Shown piece after piece: positions 960 through 5,102 of a DNA stretch of 26,819 bases. The notes beneath the pieces are model-generated. The model saw only the letters and a list, made by a program, of their open reading frames with translations. It did not search any database and was not told the DNA's origin. Source of the stretch: a virus; the IMG/VR virus record IMGVR_UViG_3300011013_000069, positions 1 to 26,819 of that record; one strand, given 5' to 3'. The stretch's first letter is position 1; each line of letters starts with the position of its first letter. A program made the translations under genes and the position numbers.

Positions 960-2669
960 ATGGATAGGCCGATCCCGCTGTTCGTGGAACTCACCGCGGG
1001 ACTGGCTTCGGTCTCACTGCGGCTCCAAGGCGGGCCCCACTGCCGGCCACCTGTGAGCCGGATGGGGAACAAGGCGGGCTACGCTGGCGCCATCCTCGAG
1101 GTGCTCGGGCTCAGGTCCAGCCAGGGGGCGGAGGCCTTCCTGTGGTGCGAGCCAGACGACGGGTGCAGGGCCCTGCTCCAAGCCTACCCCCAGCCCGATG
1201 TTCTGCGCGAAGCCGCGGAGATCATCCGGTCCTGGGCTGACGAGGACCCGCGGGCGCTGTGGGAACGGCTGCGGGCTGAGGGGCCGATTCGTGGGGCTGA
1301 TGGCGGGGAGGTGGCGCGGCACTGTTTCCTTCACATGGGGTCTTTTCAGTTCAAAGGGCCACAGGCGGGCATAGGGAGCCCGGAGGGCCACAACCGGGGC
1401 GGCTGGGGCGTGCCGCCGATAGCAACGACCATCCCGGGCCGCCTCGACTCCCTCGCCGCCTCCGAACTCGCCCGCTGGGCCCGGATCACCACCAGCAACC
1501 GCCTGATCAACCTGGACCCGCAGACCTGGCGCAACACGGGCCAAGGCGGGACCACGCACGGCGGGGAGGACTTCTCAACGGGTGCCGAGGACCTGGCGCT
1601 GGGGTTTGAGAGGGTGTCGGCTCGGGAACTTGCACGCTGGGAGGTCCGCTCGACGTGGTCCTATGAGCAGGGCAACGTAAAGACGGGATTCGTGGGGCCC
1701 GGCGAGCGCAGACAGGACACCTCAGCAACAGCAACAGCAACAGCAACAGCAAGGCACGCTCACACCTCCTGGCCCCCCGTCACCGTCTGCGCCGATGCCC
1801 GGGACATCGACCCGGGGTCATTCTACGTGGCGCCACAGTCTGCGGGACCGGACAGCGTAGATCGTGACCCGCTTCACCTTGTACCGATCTGCCATGACCT
1901 GCGCCGACTCATCCGACGATCTGATGTCGCGGACTGCATCCTCGGTGAGCTTCGCCCGGGGGTGGCGTTCTCCAATCTGGTGCGTACCGTGCCGAACCTT
2001 GTCTCCGATGTTCTCCTTCTGAGTGCTCCATGCAAGGTTTGTGGCGCGGTTGTTCGTGCGGGACCCGTCGAGATGCCGGACAACAGCCCCAGCCGGTCGA
2101 GGGCCATGGAATGCAACGCAAACCAAGGTGGCGATCTTGCGAGTGAATCGCCTGCCGCCAGTGCAGACGACAAGGTGACGATACCCGTCTTTGTCGAGGC
2201 CTCCCTTCAGCGGGCGGCGCGTGTAGTTGGAACGGATGAGGCCGCCTGCGGAGACCTCGTATTCGGGAGCTTCCGAGACCTTGCGCCAAGTCATCTACTG
2301 ACCTCCTGCACCACAATACCATATGGTGGCGCGGGTCTCCCGGCGGGCACTGTGGCATATGCGGATCCGCCGTATCGAAATACAACTGGGTACGGGAATG
2401 ACCTCCCGCGCGAGGAAGTGATTCGGCTTGCTGTTCGGTGGTCCCTCGCAGGAGCAACGGTCTGCATCTCCGAGGCTGAGGCCCTGCCTGAGCTCACTTC
2501 GATCGGGTGGCACCAGGTGGAGATCACCGACTGCCGGAAGGGTCAGAAGCGGACCTTCTCGAAGCAGAAGCGGGAATTCCTGACCCTGAACCGCGAGCCG
2601 GCCTGGGTCCCGAAGCAGTCCCTGCCCCTGGGTCTGTCGTTCGCTGAACCCCCGAAGGCGGCCAAGTGA
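960..2669 (+). CDS. N6-adenine DNA methyltransferase (D12/Dam-like) interrupted by an antisense HNH gene
   Basis: The protein carries hallmarks of an S-adenosylmethionine-dependent adenine methyltransferase: a motif-I-like F-V-E-L-T-A-G-L-A-S near residue 7, a P-P-V-S-R-M-G-N-K-A-G-Y stretch resembling motif X just after it, and the catalytic D-P-P-Y at about residues 469-472 followed by T-T-G-Y-G. It probably methylates phage or host DNA against restriction. ATG 960 was chosen because it follows a G-rich ribosome-binding stretch and directly precedes the first conserved motif. Roughly residues 285-458 (about 1813-2335) do not look like methyltransferase: on the opposite strand they encode an HNH endonuclease. 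The frame stays open across the insert, so the product could be a 569-residue protein with a large insertion or a non-functional enzyme. A hexanucleotide repeat lies just before the insert. Confidence 0.75.
   Translation: MDRPIPLFVELTAGLASVSLRLQGGPHCRPPVSRMGNKAGYAGAILEVLGLRSSQGAEAFLWCEPDDGCRALLQAYPQPDVLREAAEIIRSWADEDPRALWERLRAEGPIRGADGGEVARHCFLHMGSFQFKGPQAGIGSPEGHNRGGWGVPPIATTIPGRLDSLAASELARWARITTSNRLINLDPQTWRNTGQGGTTHGGEDFSTGAEDLALGFERVSARELARWEVRSTWSYEQGNVKTGFVGPGERRQDTSATATATATARHAHTSWPPVTVCADARDIDPGSFYVAPQSAGPDSVDRDPLHLVPICHDLRRLIRRSDVADCILGELRPGVAFSNLVRTVPNLVSDVLLLSAPCKVCGAVVRAGPVEMPDNSPSRSRAMECNANQGGDLASESPAASADDKVTIPVFVEASLQRAARVVGTDEAACGDLVFGSFRDLAPSHLLTSCTTIPYGGAGLPAGTVAYADPPYRNTTGYGNDLPREEVIRLAVRWSLAGATVCISEAEALPELTSIGWHQVEITDCRKGQKRTFSKQKREFLTLNREPAWVPKQSLPLGLSFAEPPKAAK
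1723..1752 (+). repeat. Five tandem CAGCAA hexamers
   Basis: The hexamer CAGCAA occurs five times without interruption inside the methyltransferase gene and encodes an alternating Ala-Thr run. Because the unit is six bases, copy-number change would lengthen or shorten the protein without shifting frame. It sits about 60 bases upstream of the HNH insertion. Confidence 0.9.
1818..2294 (-). CDS. NUMOD4-HNH homing endonuclease inside the adenine methyltransferase gene
   Basis: This 158-residue protein is read on the minus strand. Residues 2-50 match the NUMOD4 DNA-binding motif (W-R-K-V, E-Y-E-V-S-A-G-G-L-I-R-S). Residues 59-100 form the HNH nuclease core with V-V-R-H-L-D-G, N-N-R-A-T-N-L-A-W and E-N-I-G-D-K. 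Residues 114-158 (A-K-L-T-E-D-A-V-R-D-I-R to W-R-H-V-E) look like the C-terminal helix-turn-helix of these enzymes. A strong Shine-Dalgarno sequence (AGGAGGT on the minus strand, positions 2301-2307) precedes the ATG. Such enzymes nick or cut an uninvaded allele and are copied in by repair. Only about 20 bases separate either end from methyltransferase-like sequence, so there is no room for an intron. A sampled 60-base block inside (1861-1920) is 58 percent GC against 73 percent for 1081-1140. Confidence 0.88.
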   Translation of the reverse strand: MTWRKVSEAPEYEVSAGGLIRSNYTRRPLKGGLDKDGYRHLVVCTGGRRFTRKIATLVCVAFHGPRPAGAVVRHLDGSRTNNRATNLAWSTQKENIGDKVRHGTHQIGERHPRAKLTEDAVRDIRSSDESAQVMADRYKVKRVTIYAVRSRRLWRHVE

Positions 2670-2815
2670 AACGCCACACCCTGACCGGCGCCCTTGCCCT
2701 GACGCGAGCAGCCCTCTGGGTTGCCGGCTGGTCCGTGGCTCCCGGGGTCCTGGCCTGCATCGCTCTGGTCTTCGTCCAATCCGAACTCGAGCACAGGAGG
2801 AAGTCATGCTCTTGA
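2666..2815 (+). CDS. Small single-span membrane protein
   Basis: GTG 2666 overlaps the methyltransferase stop as GTGA and opens a 49-residue frame ending at TGA 2813. It has a basic start (V-K-R-H) and one hydrophobic segment of about 25 residues (L-W-V-A-G-W-S-V-A-P-G-V-L-A through V-F-V), then a charged tail E-L-E-H-R-R-K. This predicts one membrane helix. Its own coding region supplies the AGGAGG ribosome-binding site for the next gene, whose ATG it overlaps by ten bases. The function is unknown; a holin-like, spanin-like or exclusion role is possible but not shown. Confidence 0.6.
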   Translation: MKRHTLTGALALTRAALWVAGWSVAPGVLACIALVFVQSELEHRRKSCS

Positions 2816-3135
2816 CCCTGATCACCGCAGCCCTTGCAAGCCCAGCCCAGTGCATGACCGAGGCCGAGGCCCTGTTCACGTCCTGGCCCGTCCGCGCGGA
2901 CCTGGTGGCACCTGAGGCCCCAGAGAGCGCCTACGAGGCTCCAGGGGTCTCACAGGCCGTGGATTGGTTCGTGGATTGGATTCCTACGGGGCTTCAGATC
3001 GAGGTGGAGCTCAGCCGGAGCCTGGAAGAGCAACTGCTCTACGCGATCGACTGCACCGAGGGGTCGCACCCGGCCTGGTCCGCGATGGCTTCGGGGCTGC
3101 TGGCCCAGTGTGTGAGCGGGGGTCACTGCGGGTGA
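2806..3135 (+). CDS. Secreted (signal-peptide) hypothetical protein
   Basis: The 109-residue product starts with M-L-L-T-L-I-T-A-A-L-A-S-P-A-Q-C, a short hydrophobic signal peptide with a likely signal-peptidase-I site after A-L-A; the cysteine lacks a proper lipobox. The mature part is acidic, Trp-containing (V-D-W-F-V-D-W-I-P) and has three more cysteines that could form disulfides. A good AGGAGG site lies six bases before the ATG. A phage-encoded periplasmic or exported protein between two methyltransferases is most likely an accessory gene. No family is recognised. Confidence 0.65.
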   Translation: MLLTLITAALASPAQCMTEAEALFTSWPVRADLVAPEAPESAYEAPGVSQAVDWFVDWIPTGLQIEVELSRSLEEQLLYAIDCTEGSHPAWSAMASGLLAQCVSGGHCG

Positions 3136-5102
3136 GGGCTGTCTCCCTGTTCACGGGCGCGTGCGGTGCTGACCTCGGGATGACCGAGGCCGGGATCGAG
3201 ACCGTGTTGGGTATCGAGCATGACGCCTACGCGGTGGCGACCTGTCACGCGGCCGGGCTTGACTACGTGAAGCACGGAGACGTGCGGGACCTGTCACTGG
3301 TCGAGGACCTGGAAGACATCGATCTCGTGTACGGGGGCCCGCCCTGTCAGGCGTTCTCGACCGCGGGCAAGCGGGAAGCCCAGGACTCGGACCGGAACGG
3401 GTGGCCGTGGGCGCTCGATGTCGTGGACCTGGTCAAGCCCCAGTGGGTCCTGTTCGAGAACGTGCCCGGGTTGCTGCACCACTCCAAGGACTGCGCCGAT
3501 CCATGCGCTGGCTGCTACTGGACCGGGGACCTGCTGCCCGCCTTCCGGGAGCGGTTCCCTTGGGTCGGGCATCGGACGCTGAACGCATCCCAATATGGTA
3601 CGGTCGTTCCATGCCCGCTCCACGATACCGCCTGTCTGACCGATGCTGTGAAGAGTGCGGCAAGCGCCTCACGGTGCGCAACCGCACAGGCGTTTGCCGG
3701 ACTCCCTGCTATGGCCTCCGTGCCCGTCGAAGCGAGAAGAAGTGCAGCACATGCTCTGGGGCACTTGGCTCTCGCAATACGTGCGGCCTGTGCGTCCGGT
3801 GCAACATGCGACGAGCGGGTTCGTTCTCTCCTTGCACTGGCGCGGTCGGGCCCGACAACCCTTCCTGGAAGGGAGGCCGCCACGTTGACGACCGCGGCTA
3901 TGTCCGAGTTCGGGTGGCCGGCAAGTACCGCCGAGAGCATCGTGTTGTGGCTGAGCGCCTCCTTGGACGCCCTCTCACGAAGCGGGAAGTTGTGCACCAC
4001 ATCGACGGCAACAAGGAGAACAATCACCCTGACAATCTTGAGGTGTATCGCAGCAACGGCTATCACCTCGCCAGCCACCGGCACGGCAAGCCGTATGGAC
4101 GGGTGTGGCCTGTGTGTTGACTGGGCGGTCCCTCAGCACCGGCGCCGGGTGTTCCTGGTCGGCGGGCCTGGTCCCATCCTGTGGCCGCAGGCGACCCACG
4201 GCGACCCGGCCACGTTCAAGGCCCTGGACCTGTTCGGGAGACGGCTGAAGCCGTGGACCACCGTGCGCGACGCCCTGAACCTTGACGCCTGGGTCTACAC
4301 GGCCGGGACGAAGGGGAATGCTGAGATTCGAATCATCGGCGGGGGCCGGAACCCGCAGTCAGCCGAGGACGCGGACAAGCGCAGCTATCGGGACTTGACC
4401 GACGAGCCCTGCACGACCATAGCGGCAGCGGCAGCGGGCAACGCGGGGCCGTGGCTTGTCGGTTCCGGGCTCAAGGGCTCAACCTGGGAGGTGGAGAAGC
4501 CAGCGCCGACTCTGCGGGACGGCAACGGCACAGCCGGGCTCTACCTCGAGCGCCCGTCCCCCACCGTCACCGCCCAGGAGGTGAAGGGGACCCGAGCCAG
4601 CGCCGCCAGTGGCTGGACCTTCAGCGGTGGGCCGGACAGGGCCTCGGACGCCGTCTGGGCCGCCACCGGCCGGCGGCGCCTCACCGTGGCGGAGTGCGCC
4701 CGGCTTCAGGACTTCCCGGCCGGCCACCCCTTCCAAGGCACGAAGACGGCCCAGTATCGGCAGATCGGGAACGCCTGGCCTCGGACCTTCGGCCGGGTCC
4801 TGGGTCAGGCCTTGCTCGAGGCAGACCGCAAACTCAGGGTCTGCCCCTGCGGCCTCGACCTGATCTACGGCCACTGCTTCGCCTGTGACGACCCCCGCGA
4901 CCCGACAGCGACCGGGGGCTGCCAGGCACAGAGCGCCACGGAGATGCGCTCGGGACACCCCCACGGCTCCAACTGCCTCGGACTCGTGGGGGGTCCTTCT
5001 CCTCTTCCTGCCCCGCTCCATGCAGCTGTTGTGCAGGCCGTCAGTAGAACTGTAGATGAGGCCCTGGCGGCGGGCCGTGCGCGTGGTTGTGTGCTAAGGT
5101 GA
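3132..5102 (+). CDS. C5-cytosine DNA methyltransferase (Dcm-like) interrupted by an HNH gene
   Basis: GTG 3132 (GTGA overlap) starts a 656-codon frame with the C5-methyltransferase motif series: motif I F-T-G-A-C-G-A-D-L-G at residues 7-16, motif IV G-G-P-P-C-Q with catalytic Cys72, motif VI E-N-V at 109-111, then L-N-A-S-Q-Y-G ending at base 3599. The partner half of motif VIII, V-P-Q-H-R-R-R-V-F, resumes only at base 4128 (residue 333). Motifs IX/X (A-R-L-Q-D-F-P, Q-I-G-N-A at about 544) follow. Removing about 528 bases restores an ordinary Y-G-V-P-Q-H-R junction and a protein of about 480 residues. The insert carries an HNH gene in another frame. After motif X comes a cysteine-rich tail (C-P-C-G, then C-F-A-C, about residues 571-588). 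It likely modifies cytosine to evade restriction if still active. Confidence 0.85.
   Translation: MRAVSLFTGACGADLGMTEAGIETVLGIEHDAYAVATCHAAGLDYVKHGDVRDLSLVEDLEDIDLVYGGPPCQAFSTAGKREAQDSDRNGWPWALDVVDLVKPQWVLFENVPGLLHHSKDCADPCAGCYWTGDLLPAFRERFPWVGHRTLNASQYGTVVPCPLHDTACLTDAVKSAASASRCATAQAFAGLPAMASVPVEARRSAAHALGHLALAIRAACASGATCDERVRSLLALARSGPTTLPGREAATLTTAAMSEFGWPASTAESIVLWLSASLDALSRSGKLCTTSTATRRTITLTILRCIAATAITSPATGTASRMDGCGLCVDWAVPQHRRRVFLVGGPGPILWPQATHGDPATFKALDLFGRRLKPWTTVRDALNLDAWVYTAGTKGNAEIRIIGGGRNPQSAEDADKRSYRDLTDEPCTTIAAAAAGNAGPWLVGSGLKGSTWEVEKPAPTLRDGNGTAGLYLERPSPTVTAQEVKGTRASAASGWTFSGGPDRASDAVWAATGRRRLTVAECARLQDFPAGHPFQGTKTAQYRQIGNAWPRTFGRVLGQALLEADRKLRVCPCGLDLIYGHCFACDDPRDPTATGGCQAQSATEMRSGHPHGSNCLGLVGGPSPLPAPLHAAVVQAVSRTVDEALAAGRARGCVLR
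3611..4120 (+). CDS. HNH homing endonuclease with zinc-finger N-terminus, inside the C5 methyltransferase gene
   Basis: This 169-residue protein is read in +2 frame relative to the window, different from the surrounding methyltransferase frame. The N-terminal 70 residues have several Cys pairs (C-C-E-E-C, C-S-T-C, C-G-L-C-V-R-C) that look like zinc ribbons. A NUMOD3-like G-P-D-N-P-S-W-K-G-G follows at 80-89. The HNH core spans about 108-152 with R-E-H-R, V-V-H-H-I-D-G-N and N-N-H-P-D-N-L-E-V. ATG 3611 lies 12 bases after the last methyltransferase codon, and the stop is seven bases before the methyltransferase resumes, so the mobile unit is almost pure coding sequence. No clear Shine-Dalgarno precedes the ATG. 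An upstream start is unlikely because that region is conserved methyltransferase sequence in the other frame. Confidence 0.87.
   Translation: MPAPRYRLSDRCCEECGKRLTVRNRTGVCRTPCYGLRARRSEKKCSTCSGALGSRNTCGLCVRCNMRRAGSFSPCTGAVGPDNPSWKGGRHVDDRGYVRVRVAGKYRREHRVVAERLLGRPLTKREVVHHIDGNKENNHPDNLEVYRSNGYHLASHRHGKPYGRVWPVC

Follow-up and report, generated by a model that had tools for sequence, protein, structure and literature searches.

A probable ShiLan-type HNH homing element, without an intron, in motif VIII of a phage C5-cytosine methyltransferase

The window analyzed here is the 26,819 nucleotides of IMG/VR virus record IMGVR_UViG_3300011013_000069. Two neighboring methyltransferase genes lie in it, and each has an HNH gene inside it. 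The features that matter for what follows are these (+ and - denote the strand).

960 to 2669 (+): DPPY (adenine-type) methyltransferase, recognized from the DPPY motif and from relatives in IMG/VR and among Arthrobacter phages
1818 to 2294 (-): the other HNH_3 gene (158 aa; PF13392, 7.8e-12), on the opposite strand within the DPPY methyltransferase, a little upstream of its DPPY motif
3132 to 5102 (+): C5-cytosine methyltransferase frame, GTG start, 656 codons and a stop, open through the insert (PF00145, 1.3e-35)
3132 to 3599 (+): its N-terminal part, which holds motif I (FTGACG), PCQ and ENV and ends on Tyr-Gly in motif VIII (aligned with the relative L003, M.HaeIII and M.HhaI)
3162 to 3164 (+): Cys codon in the FxGxG of motif I
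3600 to 4127 (+): insert of 528 bases, 176 codons, defined by the empty site of L003 and a join test, with no Rfam match
3611 to 4120 (+): HNH_3 endonuclease gene, 169 aa, in the third frame relative to the host (PF13392, 1.3e-9)
4095 to 4097 (+): host-frame ATG inside the 3' end of the HNH gene, the sole candidate start considered for the C-half, with no Shine-Dalgarno-like match
4128 to 5102 (+): C-terminal part, with VPQHRRR (motif VIII), variable region, motif IX, QIGNAW (motif X) and an extra CPCG...C..C tail

The GTG start of the C5 gene at 3132 overlaps the stop of the preceding gene. The DNA_methylase family of Pfam is matched in the host frame as two stretches. The first part runs to LNASQYG, ending at 3599, and the second restarts with VPQHRRR at 4128, which splits motif VIII as YG^VPQHRRR. 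The 528-base insert that an earlier sequence-only reading had described at this point is therefore confirmed. That reading held that excision of 176 codons rebuilds the motif exactly. YGVPQ is indeed restored; however, a shift of the join by one base in either direction also yields YGVPQ or YGIPQ, and the ends of the insert are therefore known to within about one base rather than exactly. When the joined protein is aligned with M.HaeIII and M.HhaI, the junction falls at YG|IPQ of M.HhaI.

An empty allele exists. The joined protein, used as a query, retrieved L003 (IMGVR_UViG_3300040985_002052), an uninterrupted enzyme of 343 aa with a GTG start at the equivalent place, which reads ...NASSFGVPQHRRR at the junction site and has no insert there. 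L003 is identical to the joined halves at 251 of 388 aligned residues (65%), and at the nucleotide level it is 80% identical over 3132-3589, 77% over 4128-4285 and 75% over 4545-4871. The search for relatives with an empty site that the sequence-only reading had proposed was thus productive, and homologs that carry the insert as a natural part of the methyltransferase, which it had named as evidence to the contrary, did not appear. The relative searches found no second occupied allele, the sole close relative being the empty L003. Further C5 relatives amount to 13 loci, L003's own contig among them and the others at 41% identity or less, and the sequenced prokaryote genomes contributed a single one at 30%. 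At 4800-5102 the C5 gene continues beyond the stop of L003 as the cysteine-rich tail (CPCG...C..C), which L003 encodes after its stop in another frame.

Another related contig, L001, lacks more. Its matches to the window jump from 1583 to 4802, omitting most of both methyltransferases. At 1-553 of L001 the beginning of the DPPY gene is joined directly to the final C5 codons (GQALLEADR), an arrangement that a deletion of about 3.2 kb would produce. Since most of both genes is missing from this contig, the methyltransferases look dispensable in this phage lineage, as far as its sequence can tell.

The insert holds little besides the HNH gene. As had been noted, the gene lies in another frame and nearly fills the insert, taking 510 of its 528 bases. 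There are 11 bases before the ATG at 3611, where the sequence-only reading had counted about 12, and 7, as it had said, after the TGA at 4118-4120. The HNH_3 assignment is sound in Pfam (38 bits against a curated cut-off of 24.8), and the residues conserved among the HNH relatives (E-H...H-H...N...N) are present. No solved structure matched the protein up to E=0.1. The 20 bases preceding the ATG contain no Shine-Dalgarno-like match. One 8-mer, ATATGGTA, stands immediately before each of the two HNH genes (2317-2324 on the minus strand and 3593-3600 on the plus strand), with 0.03 occurrences expected in the window. We discount it as evidence because it was chosen post hoc and because, by our own estimate, some 8-mer is common to about 4% of pairs of 60-base sequences. 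Elsewhere, at L107 (2231-3848), a different phage C5 methyltransferase gene is overlapped at its 3' end by a free-standing relative of the HNH gene.

Neither kind of known self-splicing host for a homing gene was detected. Rfam gives no match up to E=5 in 3300-4500 and only 18 bases lie outside the HNH open reading frame, so a group I or group II intron is rejected. This agrees with the sequence-only reading, which had argued that there is no intron and had named a conserved group I fold as the finding that would count against it. Likewise, the read-through protein matches no intein family in Pfam at E<=0.001, and an intein is rejected on the lack of a splicing domain in the host frame.

The same arrangement was published in 2025 as the ShiLan domain of mycobacteriophage N6/N4 methylases (PMC11855218; earlier history in PMC9957025). 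The passages of the 2025 report drawn on here reach the same conclusions on frame, intron and intein, and they also raise tolerance by the host and a leaderless start of the HNH gene. The sequence-only reading mentioned neither this precedent nor the antisense HNH gene at 1818-2294. The link to ShiLan can be made directly, as the relatives of the C5-borne HNH gene in phage records include mycobacteriophage genes annotated as DNA methylases. In 15 mycobacteriophage records an N6_N4 methylase contains an HNH gene in another frame, again the third, and all 10 distinct phages compared, with 8 distinct inserts among them, have a host frame without stops over the insert. Farther downstream, the methylase gene of OwlsT2W and ShiLan is annotated in pieces. 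Quallification and Shauna1 carry empty alleles. The HNH protein of Pollywog is 100% identical to that of ShiLan, and the HNH is 98.8-100% identical to Pollywog's in 11 of the 15 records, from two phage genera, whereas the whole gene is only 82-91% identical in nucleotides. This shows that the ShiLan-type HNH is mobile. Other insertions occur in the same gene family: the StAnnes methylase has an intein-like insert and the Mantra methylase a LAGLIDADG domain (Pfam), with Totinger aligning likewise (L053, 598-2856; L040 and L049).

How close is the likeness? In both cases the HNH gene fills the insert and lies in the third frame, the host frame is open, the insert consists of whole codons at a conserved site of a phage methylase, and neither an intron nor an intein is found. 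The HNH proteins are homologous, that of the C5 gene being 52% identical to Pollywog's over 73 residues (73-145). Thus every ShiLan-defining feature that was tested appears from sequence to be present, apart from spread among alleles, for which one close relative exists. There are also differences. The host here is a C5-cytosine enzyme and not an N6/N4 enzyme, and the site is the YG^VPQ of motif VIII. The HNH ATG lies 11 bases into the insert. An 11-residue likeness of the insert start to the 3' flank, a property of ShiLan, is not evident here by eye. Finally, this phage is no known mycobacteriophage, and the neighboring methyltransferase carries a second, antisense HNH gene.

Other systems are less similar. 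According to the parts of PMC2988022 relied on here, mobE in nrdA of phage Aeh1 and mobA in gene 60 of T4 are also HNH homing genes that sit without an intron at a functionally critical place. However, their hosts are split into separate coding regions, whereas here the host frame continues. A gene in pieces of the mobE/nrdA type is accordingly not what is found, the host frame having no end in the insert. Out-of-frame HNH-like genes in phage methylases are also described, in the excerpts cited, for the Pacc40 gp60 helicase-methylase with its hidden HNH (PMC11855218) and for Applejack gp54/55 (PMC12613952). These belong to other methylase families, and the likeness is drawn from their descriptions. 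A limited literature search found no earlier account of a C5 methyltransferase interrupted in this way.

We therefore read 3600-4127, with a probability of roughly 0.78, as an intron-less homing element of the ShiLan type, consisting of an HNH_3 gene and little else and placed in motif VIII, after the codons for Tyr-Gly and before those for Val-Pro-Gln. The earlier interpretation stands as regards the HNH gene in motif VIII, the lack of an intron, the open host frame and the empty site in a relative, while its suggestion of an enzyme made in two parts is weakened (see below). The endonuclease would cut alleles with an empty site at or near the conserved coding sequence of motif VIII, and repair from the occupied phage in a doubly infected cell would copy the element in. 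Since the insert is a whole number of codons and free of host-frame stops, translation of the methyltransferase would continue through it and give a protein of 656 residues, 176 of them inserted, and the host would not be truncated. The endonuclease would then have to be started internally at ATG 3611, where no Shine-Dalgarno site is visible. With both methyltransferases apparently dispensable in the lineage, such an element could persist whether or not the enzyme works. Only one occupied allele was found, so the C5-borne copy is at most presumably mobile. A possible trace of transfer is that the two lowest of the 392 eight-codon GC3 windows in the joined gene (3/8, against 0.87 for the gene) both span the junction. 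This fits co-conversion of the flanks from a donor of lower G+C, if that is how the pattern arose. Over the 15 bases that lead up to the junction the identity to L003 is poor, though not unusually so: 31 of 611 windows have the same value or a smaller one.

The host frame is, as the sequence-only reading had it, free of stops across all 176 codons of the insert, and indeed it is so across all 656 codons of the gene. Whether this is more than chance depends on the null model. Recoding the HNH protein with matched GC3 gives a mean of 4.78 host-frame stops and a probability of none of 0.0010. With the codon usage of the phage (nine genes of the window) the probability is 0.04, and when the HNH gene's own codons are shuffled it is 0.57. 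The last is a conservative null, as the codon set that it retains may already have been shaped by selection. The first two results suggest selection for an open host frame. However, with probabilities of 0.001, 0.04 or 0.57 according to the null, the open frame alone is weak evidence, and it may be a product of chance. Amino-acid constraint on the host frame of a ShiLan-type insert was looked for in the pair Pollywog and Mantra and was not seen. Their inserts differ at 34 places that are synonymous for the HNH and change the host and at 15 that change the HNH and are synonymous for the host. By opportunity this is 0.065 against 0.029, which makes the HNH frame the constrained one.

What if the methyltransferase is simply dead? 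In this scenario activity was lost through the motif VIII insertion, alone or together with the motif I change, and the open frame reflects nothing more than the scarcity of stops in G+C-rich DNA. The insertion falls within the catalytic core, where M.HhaI has YGIPQ in the alignment. Motif I has Cys at a position that is Gly in 13 of 13 aligned relatives (alignment A4, comprising 13 of the 16 translated C5 loci; L009, L150 (motif order permuted) and L156 were left out). In addition, the own-codon shuffle readily gives an open frame, the insert is modeled at low confidence, and both methyltransferase genes of the phage carry an HNH gene. Against this, the 4.78 stops expected under GC3-matched recoding and the 0.04 under phage usage make an idle open frame less comfortable, 656 codons have accumulated neither a stop nor a frameshift, the PCQ, ENV, QxRxR, IX and X motifs are intact, and the DPPY methyltransferase frame is likewise open. 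The chances of a dead enzyme appear about even. Such an outcome concerns the state of the host gene and is compatible with the homing reading.

The structural predictions bear on the same question. The AlphaFold model of the read-through protein has a mean pLDDT of 52.7 and a pTM of 0.46, against 61.8 and 0.64 for the uninterrupted L003. In Foldseek it aligns with M.HaeIII (3ubt_A) over 610 columns with a TM of 0.59 by target length; the best-ranked alignment covers the N-half only. The predicted protein thus seems to keep a methyltransferase-like fold drawn from both halves, although the model is of poor confidence. Three outcomes had been offered at the outset: a tolerated insertion, an enzyme made in two parts and a dead enzyme. 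The open frame leans to tolerance and the Gly-to-Cys change in motif I leans to a dead enzyme, while the two-part proposal is weakened by the lack of a stop for the N-half. That the enlarged 656-residue enzyme still methylates is less likely than not.

The remaining alternatives fare much worse. In a two-part enzyme, the N-half and a C-half begun at ATG 4095 would come together, on the pattern of the split nrdA in phage Aeh1. The in-frame ATG overlaps the end of the HNH gene, working genes split by homing endonuclease genes do exist (mobE in Aeh1 nrdA, in the portion of PMC2988022 cited), and the relevant parts of PMC3404938 describe fragment complementation of C5 enzymes. However, the N-half meets no stop in the insert that would give a short N-chain, and no Shine-Dalgarno-like site precedes 4095. 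Furthermore, the same parts of PMC3404938 place motifs I-VIII on one chain in the natural two-chain enzymes M.AquI and M.EcoHK31I and have the best C-fragments of SssI beginning after motif VIII. For these reasons a two-chain enzyme is very unlikely. A -1 frameshift that fuses the N-terminal methyltransferase to the HNH is more improbable still: the HNH frame is open upstream to a stop at 3260 and so overlaps the N-half, but no classical slippery heptamer was found at codons 3399-3719. An assembly chimera is hardly credible, as the junctions, though seen in one metagenomic contig only, fall between codons of a conserved motif, just as in independent mycobacteriophage cases derived from isolates. 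Removal of 3600-4127 by an unrecognized intron or intein deserves equally little credence, since the rebuilding of the motif without the 176 codons is countered by the negative Rfam and Pfam searches, the mere 18 bases outside the HNH gene and, in the passages of PMC11855218 used, the failure of the ShiLan authors to find either.

The second HNH gene of the phage lies antisense between ADARDIDPG and LPAGTVAYADPPY of the DPPY methyltransferase, an interrupted frame that itself has no Pfam or PHROG match. It has AGGAGGT six bases before its own ATG, whereas the C5-borne gene lacks such a site, and the best PHROG matches of the two differ. Its relatives come to 2 loci at 43%. Eight DPPY relatives that cover the region (L055-L062) have no comparable insert; L063 and L064 cover the C-part only. 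L063 (1-1086), also a DPPY methyltransferase, has extra sequence of another, repeat-like kind there, with segments (PDAREIRPEDVAEWMTRA...) that recur within its variable region. The DPPY host frame is open across its HNH gene, with probabilities of no stop of 0.06 (GC3-matched), 0.48 (phage usage) and 1.0 (own codons). Given these values, its openness says little.

A wider survey places the two genes among other nested HNH genes. It comprised 108 HNH loci, 28 from one search and 80 of the 321 relatives from another, and includes repeats of one contig (L012 and L072). Nesting in a longer frame of other phase or strand was flagged at 22 of the 108; the other 86 were not so flagged, unlike the genes here. 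Of 13 nested hosts scanned with Pfam, 8 match an intein splicing domain, three of them reaching the curated cut-off, and 5 of the 8 also match a terminase domain, the HNH being antisense inside the intein. Antisense HNH genes within inteins, mostly of terminase large subunits, are seen at L010, L014, L067-L069, L076, L091, L099, L108-L110 and L135-L136, both frames being open. A limited literature search found no report of such genes. In seven antisense intein cases, several of them A+T-rich, the probability of no stop is 0.003 or less under both recoding nulls, but these are not independent tests since the cases were picked for being open. Two of the 13 scanned hosts are N6_N4 methylases, from IMG/VR phages, that hold a sense, out-of-frame HNH gene. 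That of L096 (3486-3929) is at the ShiLan site, in a methylase that also has intein-like sequence, and that of L143 (3318-3845) is elsewhere and in the second frame.

Perhaps there is a general strategy here. HNH_3 genes might nest in conserved motifs of their hosts, shifted in the sense strand or antisense, and be tied to neither introns nor inteins. Selection would keep the host frame free of stops, so that one stretch serves as endonuclease and as tolerated spacer, and both methyltransferases of this phage would be active with spacers of 160-180 residues. At present we consider this rather unlikely. What is new here is a C5 host, a site in a catalytic motif, and a second, antisense HNH gene in a DPPY methyltransferase with an open host frame.

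The locus thus extends the ShiLan-type arrangement from the N6/N4 methylases of mycobacteriophages to a C5 enzyme, in a phage that looks unrelated. If the enzyme works, it would be a natural test of the size of insertion that the core of a C5 methyltransferase can tolerate. Conversely, if it is dead, such elements need not spare their host. Together with the 2025 ShiLan report, this raises a testable question: does selection keep the hosts of nested homing genes open-framed?
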